Origin: Brachybacterium huguangmaarense
GTDB lineage: Bacteria > Actinomycetota > Actinomycetes > Actinomycetales > Dermabacteraceae
Direction: 5' to 3'
Assembly (NCBI RefSeq): GCF_025725725.1
Contig: NZ_CP107020.1
Span: forward strand, 682,001-746,000
DNA: 64,000 nucleotides
Part shown: positions 52,002-56,302 of the stretch, piece after piece
How the letters are laid out: every line of letters starts with the position of its first letter
Numbering within the stretch: the first letter of the stretch is position 1
The notes under the pieces: generated by a model
The model's input: only the letters and a program-made list of their open reading frames with translations
The model's database searches: none
What the model was told of the DNA's origin: nothing
Program-made: the position numbers and the translations under genes

Positions 52002-53006
52002 TCAGGCGGCCTCGCGCTCGCTGGCGCCCTGCAGCGCGGTGCGGCGCTCGGCGCGTTCCTTCGCCGCGGCGTCATGGGCCTGGGAGGCCGCGGCCGAGAG
52101 CCCCAGGTCCTCGATCCGCAGCGGGTGGGCGAGCTCTCCGAAGGGCGCCTCGGAGGTGAGATGACCGTCGGGGTCGACGTGCACGAGCTCGCCGGGGTCG
52201 AGGAGGCGCCAGCCCTCGTCGTCGTCCATCGGCTCGCTCGCGATGACCACGGAGTGCACGTCGCGCAGGTCGTCGGAGTGCGCCCGCATGGTCTCGGACT
52301 CCTGCTCGAGCGCCGCGTCCGCCCCCTGGCCGGCGTCGCGGTCGAGCACCCACAGCTCGTTGGTCGCGGGAAGACGCACGGCATAGAGATGATGGTCGCG
52401 GGCGACGAGCAGGTTCACCGAGTACACGGGCACATGGCGGGCGATCCAGCCGAGCGCGGCGACCAGGCCGTCGTGCAGGGCGCGGTCCCGGGCCTCGGCC
52501 TCGGCGTCGTGCTCGCCGGGACCGGCCGGCTCGTGGGCCACGCGCCGCAGTCCCCGAGCGGTCTCGCGCTGGGCGACCTCGCCGGCGATGAGAGCGGCCA
52601 TCCACTCGCTGTCGGTCGAACCCTGGACGAGGTGACCCGCGCCGAGGGACCGCACCCGCTCCCGCAGCTCGTCCGTCACCTGCAGCACCCCGTTGTGGGC
52701 CGTGATGATGCCGTCCATGAGGAACGGGTGGGTGTTCTCGCGCTCGGAGCCGGTGCCGCTGGACAGGCGGATGTGGGCGATCATCGTGCGGGCCGTGAGC
52801 GACGTCGCGGCGCGCTCGAACCGGTCCGACGAGTACGCGGCGACCGGGCGCTTGGCGACCGTGGCCGCGCCTTCCTCGTCGATCCATCCGATCCCGGTCC
52901 CGTCGGCGTTGTAGCGGGACTGATCCCGCAGGCTGTGCGGCGCATCGAGCAGCCAGAAGCGTGCGGTGACGGGCGAGTCGGCGGAGAGGGCGAAGAGGCG
53001 GCACAT
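52002..53006 (-). CDS. Class II glutamine amidotransferase
   Basis: A 334-residue Ntn-fold enzyme beginning MCRLFALSA, in which Cys2 becomes the nucleophile after methionine removal. Further class II motifs are QSRYNADGTGIGWIDEEG, MIAHIRLSSGTGSERENTHP, HNGVLQVTDELRERV and STDSEWMAALIAG. This matches the YafJ/EgtC-like subgroup that acts without a large synthetase domain. ATG at 53006 is fixed by the Cys2 rule. TACGGT (53022-53017, minus strand) stands ten bases before the ATG, with no ribosome site, so the transcript may be nearly leaderless. The substrate is unknown. Confidence 0.9.
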   Translation of the reverse strand: MCRLFALSADSPVTARFWLLDAPHSLRDQSRYNADGTGIGWIDEEGAATVAKRPVAAYSSDRFERAATSLTARTMIAHIRLSSGTGSERENTHPFLMDGIITAHNGVLQVTDELRERVRSLGAGHLVQGSTDSEWMAALIAGEVAQRETARGLRRVAHEPAGPGEHDAEAEARDRALHDGLVAALGWIARHVPVYSVNLLVARDHHLYAVRLPATNELWVLDRDAGQGADAALEQESETMRAHSDDLRDVHSVVIASEPMDDDEGWRLLDPGELVHVDPDGHLTSEAPFGELAHPLRIEDLGLSAAASQAHDAAAKERAERRTALQGASEREAA

Positions 53007-53111
53007 GACGGAGGCCACCGTACTCCCCCGTCGTCTCACATGCTATGAGCGCGGTCTCACCACGTGGGCGGGTGGGGAGGGCATGGGCCAGAGCCCATGC
53101 GGCCTCGGCCT

Positions 53112-53195
53112 CATCGACAGGCACGTTCCTGTCGCGTGCGCTCTCCCTACCGACGGGAACGTGGCGCTCGAGCACGCATGGCGACGGATTCGTGC
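53112..53195 (+). repeat. Structured 84-nt repeat, unit 1
   Basis: Begins CATCGACAGGCACGTTC and, 45 bases later, has GAACGTGGCGCTCGA, then CGACGGATTCGTGC. The first two segments are imperfect inverted repeats of each other, so a hairpin can form. It aligns without gaps to unit 2 (56 of 84 positions by eye) and unit 3 (46 of 84). Confidence 0.6.
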
Positions 53196-53233
53196 GCGTC
53201 GCGTGCACACAGGGCGCAGCCGCCGGCGGGTGG

Positions 53234-53317
53234 CATCGACACGCGCGTTCGCGTCGCTCTCAGAGGCCATACCACCGAGAACGTGCACGTCGATCTCTGC
53301 TTCCGACGGGTTCGTGC
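53234..53317 (+). repeat. Structured 84-nt repeat, unit 2
   Basis: Begins CATCGACACGCGCGTTC, with GAACGTGCACGTCGAT at 53279 and CCGACGGGTTCGTGC at the end. Same internal spacings as unit 1, from which it is displaced by exactly 122 bases; 52 of 84 positions match unit 3. Confidence 0.6.
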
Positions 53318-53637
53318 ATCTGGATCAGCCCCTCGCCCCGACGCGGCGACGGGAACCTCGCGCGAGCAGCCGCGTGCCCTGCCTCGGGAGTTCCGGGCAG
53401 GCCCTGCCGCACGGGCCCTTCGACGGCGCGTTCAGGCATGTCTCTCGCACATGCTCGACGGCACCGGCGCGAACGTCCCTCTCGGGCAGGGGGCTCTGCC
53501 GCCCTCGGCACGCGACGAGGCGCGCTCGGCCGCAGACTTTCCCGGCGCGAGTTGTGGAGGAGTCGCCGATGACGGCGTTGACCTGCGGATTGTGGAGCGC
53601 GCATCGTCGACGGACCGCGCCCTGCCACTCTCATCCC

Positions 53638-54570
53638 ATGACGCGTCCCGCCGCCGAGCTGCCGCCTCCCCTCCGGGCGGGCGCCTTCAGTGCCCAGGAG
53701 CTCCGACGACATGGCGTGTCCGTCGAGCGCGCTCGACGCCGGGACATCCGTCGTCTGGGACGCGGCATCTACGTGCATGCCGCCGCGACACCCACCGAGG
53801 AGGACGTCATCGCGGCGTACTGTCGGGCGGACTCGCATGCCGCCGCCTGTGGGTTCTCGGCTGCTCGGCTATGGAGGCTCCCCCTGCCAGCCCCCTTCGA
53901 CACGTGGGTTCCGGGGCAGCGGGTCGAGATGGCGGGCTCCTCGCATCGGCGGACGACGGAGTCCGTGTCCTGGAGGCACCTCGAGCTGTCGAAGGCGGAC
54001 CTGGTCACCGGCGTACGCCTCCGCGCCACGTCACCGGCTCGGACCCTGCTGGACATCGCTCCCCTGCTCGCGCACGACGATCTGGTCGCGGTCGGCGACG
54101 CGCTCGTCCGCTCCCCGCGCCTCGCCTTCGAGGGCCGGAGCGAGCCGTGGGCCACGATCCCCTCCCTGACCGAGGCGGCCGCCTCGTTCCGCGGACGCGG
54201 CGCGAGGGCTGTGCGGGAGGCGCTCGCCGACGTGCGGATGAGTGCGGACTTCCGCCCCGAGACGTTCCTGCGGCTCGCGAGCGTGCGCGCGGGGCTTCCC
54301 GAGCCGCTCGCGAACGCCGAGATCCGGGTCGACGGGATCTCGCTGGGCACGCCCGATCTGCAGTGGCCCGAGCTCCACGTGTGCGGTGAGCACGAGGGCC
54401 CCCGGCATCGCACCCCGGAGCAGCAGGAGCGCGACATCCGTCGGGCAGAGCTGCGTCGACGCCACGGCTGGGTCGAGGTCCTGACGACGGCCGTCGACCT
54501 CCGCGACGGGTGCACGCGCGCGGTGCGCCGCTACCGCGAGGAGCTGGTGCGACGGGGGTGGGAGCCGTGA
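53638..54570 (+). CDS. AbiEi-antitoxin/DUF559-like protein
   Basis: A 310-residue protein. The N-terminus has a winged-helix-like pattern with FSAQELRRHGVSVERARRRD and IRRLGRGIYVHA, as in AbiEi-type antitoxin domains. The C-terminal ~90 residues (EIRVDGISLGTPDLQWPELH, HEGPRHRTPEQQERDIRRAE, HGWVEVLTT) resemble the DUF559/Vsr-like endonuclease fold, with PDLxWPE and the following E/H region in the positions of catalytic acids. Actinobacteria often carry many such orphan genes. No AbiEii toxin is adjacent. It is flanked by three copies of an 84-nt repeat, which suggests mobility or target recognition. ATG 53638 lacks a clear ribosome-binding site. Confidence 0.7.
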   Translation: MTRPAAELPPPLRAGAFSAQELRRHGVSVERARRRDIRRLGRGIYVHAAATPTEEDVIAAYCRADSHAAACGFSAARLWRLPLPAPFDTWVPGQRVEMAGSSHRRTTESVSWRHLELSKADLVTGVRLRATSPARTLLDIAPLLAHDDLVAVGDALVRSPRLAFEGRSEPWATIPSLTEAAASFRGRGARAVREALADVRMSADFRPETFLRLASVRAGLPEPLANAEIRVDGISLGTPDLQWPELHVCGEHEGPRHRTPEQQERDIRRAELRRRHGWVEVLTTAVDLRDGCTRAVRRYREELVRRGWEP

Positions 54571-54607
54571 GCCGCGCAGGGACGGGACGCCCCACCTCGG
54601 TCGTGGG

Positions 54608-54768
54608 CCGACAGGCGGAGAGCAGGCGGGGGGAGAGAGAGAACAGGCGCCAGGGGGGAGCAGGCGGCGGGGAGGAGAGCAGCCGACAGGGGGAAGCAGG
54701 CGCCGACCCCTATCGGGGGAGTCCATCGCCCTCTCTCTCTTCTCTCTCCCCCCGGGGGGGGCGAGCTG
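54608..54768. repeat. Low-complexity purine-rich/pyrimidine-rich inverted region
   Basis: Imperfect GGGGAGCAGGCG-type purine repeats occupy the first part and a CT run the second. GGGGGGAGAGAGAGAA (54628-54643) can pair with TTCTCTCTCCCCCC (54740-54753) over at least 12 bases. Such mirror-like tracts can form hairpins or triplex structures. Confidence 0.5.
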
Positions 54769-54781
54769 GCTGTGGACGTCG

Positions 54782-54865
54782 CATCGAGGATCACGATTCT
54801 GTCGGTATCTGCAGCCACAACGCCCGAAATGTGCACCTCGATTCACGGTTTCGACGACAACGTGC
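54782..54865 (+). repeat. Structured 84-nt repeat, unit 3
   Basis: Begins CATCGAGGATCACGATTCTG; after the same 45-base offset as units 1 and 2 comes AAATGTGCACCTCGATTC, then TTTCGACGACAACGTGC. It lies about 210 bases beyond the stop of the AbiEi/DUF559-like gene, so units bracket that gene. Confidence 0.6.
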
Positions 54866-54897
54866 CACTCGCCCCCCCGCCGCGTACTCGGGCGGGA

Positions 54898-55046
54898 CGC
54901 GCTGAGCTCTTGTCGGCGTCCTCGCCCTCGTGATCAGCGCAGGGCCGCGGAGCGGATCGGCCCGGGCGGATCGCGCTCAGCTCTTGTCGGCGTCCTCGCC
55001 CTCGTGATCAGCGCAGGGCCGCGGAGCGGATCGGCCCGGGCGGATC
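54898..55046 (+). repeat. 74-bp tandem direct repeat, two copies
   Basis: Copies start at 54898 and 54972 and match over 75 bases with a single difference (54904 G, 54978 C). They lie immediately upstream of the TVP38-like gene and may duplicate promoter or operator sequence. Near identity implies recent duplication. Confidence 0.92.
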
Positions 55047-55072: not shown

Positions 55073-56302
55073 ATGAACCACACCGACCGGCCCGATCCCG
55101 CCGCCTCCGCGGGCCCCGTCCCCGCGGACCGGAACCTCCCCGACGCCTCCTCCCCTGCGCCGTCCGCCTCGTCGAACGCCCCCTCGTCGAGCGCGACGAT
55201 CTCGACGTCGCCCACCCCGTCAGGCGCCACGGACGCCACGATCTCGATGTCGCCCACCCCGTCAGATGCCACGGACGCCACGATCTCGGCGTCGCCCACC
55301 CCGTCAGACGCCACGGACGCCACGATCTCGACGCCGTCCGCCACGGACACCACGGTCTCGACGCCTTCGCGCACCTCGGGCGCCTCCTCCGCTCCCGACC
55401 TCCACCCGGCCCCCGCGCGTCACTCCGCCGCCTCAGGCAACCACGACGACGCGCTCACCCTCGACGCGCCGCTGAACCCCGACGTGCCCGTCGATCCCGA
55501 CGCCCGCCCGTCGACCGGCACGCCCTTCGACGACGGGGCCGACGAGGACGACGCGACCGACGAGGCCACGCCGCCTCGACGCGCCGGCGTCCCGTGGGGC
55601 TCGATCCTGCGCAACGCCTCGCTCGTGCTCGTCGTGCTCGGGATGCTCTGGCTCGCGCTCAACGTGCGCCTGCCGGACCTCTCGACCCTCGACGAGCGGA
55701 TCGAGGGCTATGGCTGGGCGGGTGTCTTCGTGTTCATCGCGCTCTATGCGGTCGTCGCCCTGACCCCGATCCCCATCACGATCATGGCGGTCGCGGGCGG
55801 CATGGCCTTCGGGGTGCTCCTGGGCACGCCGCTGTCGCTGATCGGCGTGACGCTCGGCAGCTGGGGCGCCTACGGGGCGGCCCGCGGGCTGGGTCAGAAG
55901 ACGGTCCTCAAGATGCTCGGCGGCCACGCCCACGTGGTCGAGTCCCAGCTGGTCGGAGGCGGTTTCTACGCCGTCTGCACGCTCCGCCTCGCCCCGGGCA
56001 TCCCCTACTGGCCCGTCAACTACGGGGCGGGCGCGTTCGGCGTGCCGCACCGGGACTTCCTCGCCGCGACGATCCTCGCCTCGGCGCCCGGCCAGCTCTC
56101 GCTCGTCGCGATCGGGGCGTTCATCGCGGATCCGGGGTGGATCAACGGCTCGGTCGTCGTGATCTCGTGGATCGTCGTGCTCGTGCTGTCGGTGCTCGCC
56201 TTCCGGCGCTGGCGTCGCGACACCCGCTCCGCGGCCCCGGACGCCGGCGCGGCGACGCCCCGTCGCCGCGGTCTCAGGCGCTCCGTCTCGAAGACTGGAT
56301 GA
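55073..56302 (+). CDS. TVP38/TMEM64-family (VTT domain) membrane protein
   Basis: A 409-residue protein. The first ~175 residues are a disordered, Ser/Thr/Pro/Asp-rich stretch that includes three 14-residue repeats (TISTSPTPSGATDA-like, from residue 42). The C-terminal part is a VTT/SNARE-associated domain: hydrophobic helices, FIALYAVVALTPIPITIMAV, GGMAFGVLLGTPLSLIG, GSWGAYGAARGLG and TLRLAPGIPYWPVNYGAGAF. Such proteins belong to the DedA/TMEM41 superfamily linked with lipid scrambling. ATG at 55073 is chosen; an upstream GTG at 55004 lies inside the tandem DNA repeat. The 3' end overlaps the convergent VOC gene by 29 bases. Confidence 0.85.
   Translation: MNHTDRPDPAASAGPVPADRNLPDASSPAPSASSNAPSSSATISTSPTPSGATDATISMSPTPSDATDATISASPTPSDATDATISTPSATDTTVSTPSRTSGASSAPDLHPAPARHSAASGNHDDALTLDAPLNPDVPVDPDARPSTGTPFDDGADEDDATDEATPPRRAGVPWGSILRNASLVLVVLGMLWLALNVRLPDLSTLDERIEGYGWAGVFVFIALYAVVALTPIPITIMAVAGGMAFGVLLGTPLSLIGVTLGSWGAYGAARGLGQKTVLKMLGGHAHVVESQLVGGGFYAVCTLRLAPGIPYWPVNYGAGAFGVPHRDFLAATILASAPGQLSLVAIGAFIADPGWINGSVVVISWIVVLVLSVLAFRRWRRDTRSAAPDAGAATPRRRGLRRSVSKTG
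55196..55345 (+). repeat. 42-bp in-frame tandem repeats in the TVP38-like gene
   Basis: Units begin at 55196, 55238 and 55280, with a partial fourth at 55322; each starts ACGATCTCG and has a 42-base period encoding 14 residues. They are nearly identical and lie in the disordered N-terminal part, so copy number may vary between strains. Confidence 0.85.

Follow-up and report, generated by a model that had tools for sequence, protein, structure and literature searches.

What connects a nuclease-like gene with the structured repeats that stand on both sides of it? The question is raised by a stretch of 64,000 nucleotides from Brachybacterium huguangmaarense (contig NZ_CP107020.1, positions 682,001 to 746,000; hereafter the window, in whose numbering positions are given). 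Three related units, U1 (53112-53195), U2 (53234-53317) and U3 (54782-54865), lie there around a gene for an AbiEi/DUF559-like protein. These repeats are probably local members of a hairpin family that is private to the genome and partnered with the bracketed AbiEi/DUF559-Vsr-like nuclease gene. As judged from sequence comparison, the best reading of the gene and its repeats is a system on a Vsr/DUF559-type nuclease that resembles the REPINs (hairpin-forming doublets of repetitive extragenic palindromic sequences, REPs) and their RAYTs (REP-associated tyrosine transposases); no earlier description of such a system was found.

Repeats on both sides of the gene family

The brackets were scored by the best 22-mer common to the two 450-bp flanks of one gene, with a threshold of 19/22. 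The 94 loci comprise 29 from the homolog search, 60 picked before their flanks were seen, and five others (the window, L036, L037, L038 and L093). L093, which was brought in by a repeat search, and one truncated locus were dropped, and 92 were tested. In 64 of these 92 Micrococcales loci, a repeat of about 20 bp that is specific to the locus stands on both sides of the gene, whereas the threshold was reached by 8/368 permuted flank pairs, 7/92 far flanks (450-900 bp) and 5/104 other genes taken from random stretches in these genomes. At 20/22 or better, 52/92 members of the gene family stand against none of the 104 control genes, and 13 of the 92 loci have a perfect match of 22/22. Some flanks from the set of 29 had been read before the test was designed; the rate was 39/59 in previously unseen loci and 25/33 in the rest. 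The loci are not all independent, because close relatives are included (e.g. L166/L167, with 97% protein identity). Among further same-genus loci, 13/22 are bracketed (permuted 13/462); five duplicates had been removed from this set, and at least two of its members (L335 and L336) carry repeat families of the first set.

Each gene has a bracket sequence of its own, unless close relatives share one. Its orientation is direct or inverted, and the brackets are often whole hairpins. The expectation of the sequence-only reading, that such repeats would be found beside homologous genes in relatives, thus holds for their position on both sides of the gene (64/92, 13/22, and 9/22 outside the order), but not for their sequence, which differs with each gene.

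Hairpin structure and co-divergence

Of the 94 loci, 38 have a hairpin with arms matching at 15/16 or better upstream of the gene and 37 have one downstream; 22 loci have such hairpins on both sides. The corresponding counts were 2, 1 and 0 of 200 pseudo-genes, and 0/94 for the far flanks on each side. Among the 64 bracketed loci, inverted pairs occur on both sides in 37, upstream only in 12 and downstream only in 3. Compensatory changes were counted in 33 loci with superposable upstream and downstream hairpins, which gave 735 stem positions. The stems contain 45 double changes, whereas 14 are expected if the two sides change independently; 30 of them keep a Watson-Crick pair, and 85 single changes break one. 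A test for compensatory changes had been proposed by the sequence-only reading. Together with the flank repeats, these 30 changes from one Watson-Crick pair to another support its suggestion that the AbiEi/DUF559-like gene goes with a structure, or a target of a protein, that is conserved. A small RNA family, which it also considered, need not be invoked. Within the family of one genome (G139) the covariation is modest (13/494 cells), because the family sequence itself is conserved. A clean example of a bracketed gene is L038 in Microbacterium hydrocarbonoxydans C1-2 (NZ_JAAKXW010000002.1), where the order is a hairpin with the arms CTCCCGTATGAGTTC and GAAACTCATACGGGAG, then TGTGGATAAC, the gene, and a second hairpin with the arms CTCCCGTATGAGTTCCTGCG and CGCAGGAACTCATACGGGAG.

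The hairpin and the protein co-diverge. Over pairs of the 94 loci, a flank repeat (at least 18/20) is shared by 4/4 pairs with at least 70% protein identity and by 6/11 pairs with 60-70%. The share falls to about 9% of 34 pairs at 50-60% identity, and to 1-2% below that, with about 1% under 40% identity.

Promoter motif

The family also has a conserved motif in front of the gene. Over the 94 loci, the 100 bp ahead of the gene contain 39 occurrences of TTATCCACA, one mismatch being allowed, whereas 0.16 are expected. Its core TGTGGA/TCCACA, which we take to be the DnaA box, lies within 150 bp upstream in 80/94 loci, compared with 64/1580 control pieces and 7/104 control genes; it is also present in 20/22 of the further same-genus loci. 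In 51 loci the core is on the + strand, and 36 of these have it 40-49 bp ahead of the point where the protein match begins. The putative DnaA site is TGTGGATAA. As read in the sequence of the window, a TGTGGA core (53591-53596, + strand) stands 47 bp before the ATG, at the usual spacing of the family, and a second one lies at 53553-53558 (+ strand). In genus g12 (L176-L180, L182 and L183) the promoter motif is often an inverted pair, TGTGGAT...ATCCACA.

Dispersed copies and the sister genome

Copies of the hairpins away from the gene (orphans) were sought with 21 upstream hairpins in their 20 home genomes, and 21 candidates were scored per genome. All the matches listed are to the hairpin of the genome in question. 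Apart from the two gene copies, there are at least 19 orphan places in G139, at least 16 in G134, at least 12 in G051 and at least 7 in G173; the two hairpin families of G134 belong to two different genes. Thirty-nine orphans were read, and they are hairpins with flanks that are unrelated by eye. By a crude gene caller, 17 of them have convergent neighbours and 14 co-directional ones, while none has divergent neighbours; 7 may lie inside a reading frame, and one could not be assigned. The Y1_Tnp domain (PF01797) has no match in the 20 genomes, while 5/14 control genomes match. A RAYT/IS200 enzyme as the mobiliser was therefore rejected for these 20 genomes.

The genome of the window (G000) was compared with a related sister genome (G013) at 11 loci, two of which (L048 and L046) were informative. 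The pyrophosphatase locus spans 93 bp in G013 and about 1.7 kb, with a second bracketed gene, in G000. An orphan-array site spans 218 bp in G013 against 886 bp in G000. At L045, the flanks are separated in G013 by about 1.1 kb of different sequence. Only one-sided alignments were obtained for L043, L044, L047 and the window locus; the pieces of L039 lie on separate contigs, and L040, L042 and L004 had no match.

The nuclease gene

The sequence-only reading had placed an AbiEi/DUF559-like gene between the units, and this gene is real (53638-54570, + strand, 310 amino acids). It is likely the cognate gene of the repeats. An AbiEi-type winged helix at the N-terminal is indicated by the PADLOC AbiEi models (best E 3.8e-7, residues 15-140), and a probable DUF559/MTES_1575-like (Vsr-like) nuclease part by a 38-member alignment that includes the window protein. 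Of the 38 sequences, 13 match MTES_1575, 10 match DUF559 and 24 match PDLC02249 of PADLOC. The window protein itself has no Pfam match at E 0.01 (best 0.076, AbiEi_3_N), and its sequence matches in the PDB have E 0.11 or worse. The residues E208, D240, H257, Q262, D266 and R269 are invariant across the alignment.

An initial search for related loci returned two only. Homologs were found in 126/149 sampled Micrococcales genomes, with one to nine per genome, and in 90/296 genomes of a phylum sample, 8 of those 90 being from the order. Where a source names these genes, they are mostly called hypothetical or DUF559 proteins. Plasmid records gave 5 matches in 72,556, and phage records 1 in 50,697. 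In 38 same-genus genomes (own included), the full-length matches listed for the window protein reach at most 52% identity and partial ones up to 59%; the full-length match at 52% is a paralogue in G000. A more divergent gene of the MTES_1575 type in G000 (L052, C1:67946-68200) has an inverted-repeat bracket of 22/22, GCTGGTGATGTGCACTGGCGAT, and the bracketing rule may thus reach past the aligned family.

Repeat units of the window and of its genome

All three units were found in the positions where the sequence-only reading had put them, and they are mutual best matches: in the window, the top two + strand matches of each unit are the remaining two. Their ungapped identity is 56/84 (U1-U2), 52/84 (U2-U3) and 46/84 (U1-U3). 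An identity far above that of unrelated DNA had been claimed, which is correct against the window background (mean 22-24, standard deviation 4.3-4.5). The best non-members on the + strand score 43, 45 and 40, so U1-U3 exceeds the best of these by little. The 84 bases are not the repeat unit that they had been taken for. They are a composite of three copies of a 21-mer, CGACNNNAACGTGCNNNTCGA (motif 1): an inverted copy, a direct one at 37 bp, and a second direct one at a further 31 bp. When two mismatches are allowed, 7 of the 8 sites of CGACNNNAACGTGCNNNTCGA in the window are inside the units; at three mismatches the figure is 10/31.

In U1 the inverted copy (53114-53134, - strand, no mismatch) forms the left arm of a hairpin doublet, and the first direct copy (53151-53171, + strand, one mismatch) forms the right arm; the second direct copy (53182-53202, + strand, three mismatches) is a TTCGTGC variant. 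The inverted copy of U2 lies at 53236-53256 (- strand, one mismatch), followed by direct copies at 53273-53293 (two mismatches) and 53304-53324 (three mismatches), both on the + strand. The downstream bracket U3 has its inverted copy at 54784-54804 (- strand, two mismatches) and its direct copies at 54821-54841 (two mismatches) and 54852-54872 (one mismatch), again on the + strand. A possible additional degenerate copy, which could be due to chance, lies at 53465-53485 (+ strand, three mismatches). An imperfect hairpin had been proposed for each unit. Taken alone as folded DNA, it is well supported for U1 (z -3.2, 53110-53173), whereas U2 (z -0.8) and U3 (z -1.2) give it weak support. The search of the window against Rfam gave no match at the gathering score, and the tRNA scan found none.

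By the bracket test, the upstream and downstream flanks of the window gene match at 17/22 within 450 bp, which is a background value and leaves the locus outside the 64. The window locus is a degenerate example of a bracketed gene; U1 to U3 resemble an old bracket that has been extended in tandem, remoter and more divergent than is typical.

The whole home genome (G000, 3.26 Mb) was searched for motif 1. With at most two mismatches there are 142 + 138 sites, many of which are coding background, compared with 8 + 11 for the reversed pattern. Ten stretches were read, and motif 1 forms at least nine further, apparently intergenic arrays away from the window. The ten arrays, including that of the window, contain 106 units with at most three mismatches. 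Neighbours in the same orientation are spaced at 31 bp in 45 cases and at 30 bp in 7, and inverted-direct pairs at 37 bp in 22 cases and at 38 bp in 2 (24 doublets). With at most one mismatch, G000 has 89 sites (51 + 38), whereas each of 37 same-genus genomes has 0 to 10; motif 1 is not expanded in these 37 genomes. In 80 other genomes of the family or order the number is 0 to 29 (highest in G097 with 29, G107 with 21 and G105 with 20), counted without reading the sites singly, so that they may or may not be coding background. A type-2 motif, CGANNGAAACGCAGANNTCGA, was found with at most one mismatch in 9/297 genomes of the order (own included), several hits being coding by eye. A single sequence common to all relatives was rejected on these counts, and the repeats are therefore viewed as locus-specific.

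The partner of motif 1 is likely, though not certainly, the window gene, judging from position, from elimination, and from the fact that, within the genus, gene and motif are each peculiar to this genome. The elimination relies on L036, a paralogue, and on the divergent L052, as both have different brackets.

Comparison with known systems

In Pseudomonas and other bacteria, the REP/REPIN-RAYT systems consist of a single-copy nuclease gene with palindromic flanking repeats, extragenic copies, and flavours that are tied to the gene; the REPIN doublets form hairpins with compensatory changes (PMC3116915). The loci described here are alike in several respects. A nuclease gene is flanked by gene-specific palindromic repeats, dispersed extragenic doublets form hairpins (in several of the 20 genomes, and as 24 doublets in G000), and the stems show compensatory changes (30 double Watson-Crick changes, 33 loci). 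They are unlike these systems in the enzyme, since RAYTs are IS200-like tyrosine (Y1/HUH) enzymes, whereas an AbiEi winged helix is here joined to a DUF559/Vsr-like nuclease. They also differ in the locus-specific whole hairpins, the DnaA-box-like promoter motif and the host phylum, Actinomycetota. The layout is thus alike, but membership of the REP-RAYT group fails because the defining Y1/HUH enzyme is absent (0/20 genomes).

The N-terminal winged helix, recognised by the PADLOC AbiEi models, is shared with AbiE type IV toxin-antitoxin systems. An AbiEi protein of such a system binds palindromes in its promoter, as seen by electrophoretic mobility shift assay, and a similar site at oriT (PMC11062541). 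The present proteins differ in that this domain is fused to a nuclease-type C-terminus, and in the bracketing hairpins and dispersed copies. DUF559 proteins have been grouped with Vsr-like PD-(D/E)XK nucleases (PMC12907096). The VsrA of Caulobacter has a DUF559/PD-(D/E)XK-type nuclease domain, like the one that is probable here. It differs in its connection with mismatch repair and the methylation of cytosine, and hairpin brackets are not described in the part of that paper drawn on (PMC12907096). Short palindromes dispersed in intergenic DNA are also typical of the GTAG- and CGTC-tagged REP families. These have fixed tetranucleotide tags, and no link to DUF559 genes is made in the part of the paper drawn on. 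The main text nowhere uses the word Actinobacteria, and for the CGTC-tagged REP-like families a dedicated enzyme or transposase is not known (PMC3733652).

The loci do not have the terminal inverted repeats with target-site duplications of insertion sequences and miniature inverted-repeat transposable elements: the brackets are direct or inverted and often whole hairpins, and by eye no duplication was seen around orphans. The EDxHD homing endonucleases of the I-Bth0305I type have a Vsr fold. The present family resembles them in that a Vsr-related nuclease would act as a selfish gene. The Vsr-fold homing endonucleases, however, sit in introns or in genes of phages, and are not known to have hairpin brackets or scattered copies. 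EDxHD is named as a homing family in the abstract of PMC6083498. Among the matches listed in a search of open-access titles and the beginnings of abstracts, no link between DUF559/AbiEi genes and dispersed repeats was found.

Mechanism and alternative explanations

In the mechanism that we propose, the winged helix would recognise the palindrome, and the nuclease would nick or cut at the hairpin, perhaps when it is single-stranded or extruded in replication, to which DnaA might couple the process. Repair or replication might then copy the hairpin into new intergenic sites, as RAYTs are thought to do for REPINs. In G000 the family probably also grew by the addition of 31-bp units in tandem after the hairpin doublet. 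Recognition and cutting of the hairpin would be natural activities for such a protein, because AbiEi binds palindromes and DUF559 proteins are Vsr-like nucleases. A bolder proposal, on which we find belief and doubt evenly balanced, is that of a second, independently evolved selfish system of the REPIN type. The AbiEi/DUF559 nucleases of Actinomycetota would recognise, cut and propagate private hairpins, with their expression tied to DnaA and the copying to replication. The gene-hairpin pairs would diverge together, and much unexplained intergenic palindromic DNA would be their product. If this is true, common genes that are mostly called hypothetical or DUF559 would gain a function, and a common class of uncharacterised actinobacterial genes may drive selfish DNA repeats. 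The Actinomycetota would also gain a REP-like system with a non-HUH enzyme. The spread of REP-like palindromes could then be tested with dozens of protein-hairpin pairs, which would serve as natural specificity experiments. A nuclease with a recognition hairpin that can be read from its own flanks would be of interest for structure-specific nuclease searches.

It is unlikely that the hairpins serve autoregulation or remote regulation, with an AbiEi-like regulator, an upstream palindrome as operator, a downstream copy that loops or insulates, and orphans as the sites of a regulon. AbiEi binds palindromes in its own promoter and a similar oriT site (PMC11062541), and the palindromes here adjoin a conserved promoter motif. 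However, a near-identical copy lies past the stop codon, and 37/64 bracketed loci have inverted pairs on both sides. None of the 39 orphans was placed between divergent genes by the crude gene caller and 17 were placed between convergent ones, where operators are unlikely. The nuclease-type domain is also kept, with invariant acidic, His and Gln residues, and the repeat sets are genome-private among the matches listed. Still less probable is that independent palindromes (REP-like, terminator-like or moved by another enzyme) merely serve the nuclease gene as insertion targets, which predicts many orphan families without a gene. Orphans are indeed common between convergent genes, and CGTC REP-like families without a known dedicated transposase have been described (PMC3733652). 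Such an origin is difficult to reconcile with a hairpin sequence that tracks the protein sequence, with the two families of G134 for two different genes, or with the lack of Y1_Tnp in all 20 genomes. An artefact of composition, or chance similarity in GC-rich intergenic DNA, can practically be dismissed. An early 16-mer statistic (13/16 identity) failed to separate the gene loci from the controls, because the bias of GC-rich coding DNA drowned it; exact 10-mers, cross-flank 22-mers and hairpin arms were used in its place. The signal is not reproduced by permuted or far flanks, by pseudo-genes or by other genes from these genomes, and 13/92 loci match at 22/22.

Several observations weigh against a nuclease that is partnered with its hairpins and spreads them. 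Movement is inferred and none was observed, and no target-site duplication was seen by eye around aligned orphans. Some genomes have few or no orphans among the matches listed (e.g. G097 and G115, with the gene's own copies). Of the 92 loci, 28 stay under 19/22, and among the 64 with brackets there are 12 that have an inverted pair neither upstream nor downstream. Outside the order the bracket signal is weaker (9/22, permuted 8/462), and the promoter core is present in 5/22 loci only. The brackets of the window gene stand far off, about 320 bp upstream and 212 bp downstream, and are divergent; the gene is therefore tied to motif 1 by position and elimination. G000 has four further MTES_1575-like stretches. 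Of their genes, L052 has its own bracket, and L050 and L051, at which no bracket was seen, are less likely candidate partners of motif 1. No relative of the window gene was found in the stretches (5.5-7 kb) of the nine other motif-1 arrays and the L042 array; the idea that every array in G000 adjoins such a gene was rejected, since distant arrays lack one in their stretches.

Neighbouring features and related arrays

A related repeat variant, CGACCGAAACGCAGANNTCGA, forms its own array at L042 and is mixed into that of L041; it is also listed for L039 and L093 (G063). The CGANNGAAACGCAGANNTCGA search led to a locus of G063 where an array adjoins a DUF559 gene. There, a repeat similar to CGACCGAAACGCAGANNTCGA forms a tandem array directly 3' of the DUF559-type gene.

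The MocR-array-glutaminase locus is near identical by eye between L041 (G000 C1:600.3-601.2k) and L088 (G013), with a shorter array in G013; whereas the other compared loci of the two genomes are about 79-90% identical. This near-identity suggests a recent transfer, and a recent transfer plus growth of the array is the likely history of the locus. Frames of 334 codons stand beside two arrays (L039 1190-2191 and L043 3505-4506). One of them is presumably an IS3-type transposase, and insertion sequences may target these arrays.

Three neighbouring frames in the window matched GATase_4, CAAX protease and VTT in Pfam. Class II glutamine amidotransferase genes adjoin two arrays, one in the window (52002-53039, GATase_4) and one at L041 (3922-4920, tentatively assigned), which is probably a coincidence. 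A stretch of about 74 bp, GCTCTTGTCGGCGTCCTCGCCCTCGTGATCAGC..., is present twice in tandem (about 54897-55046), directly 5' of the gene for the VTT-domain protein. The N-terminal coding part of that gene also contains tandem repeats (55180-55340), which are TISTSPTPSGATDA-like.

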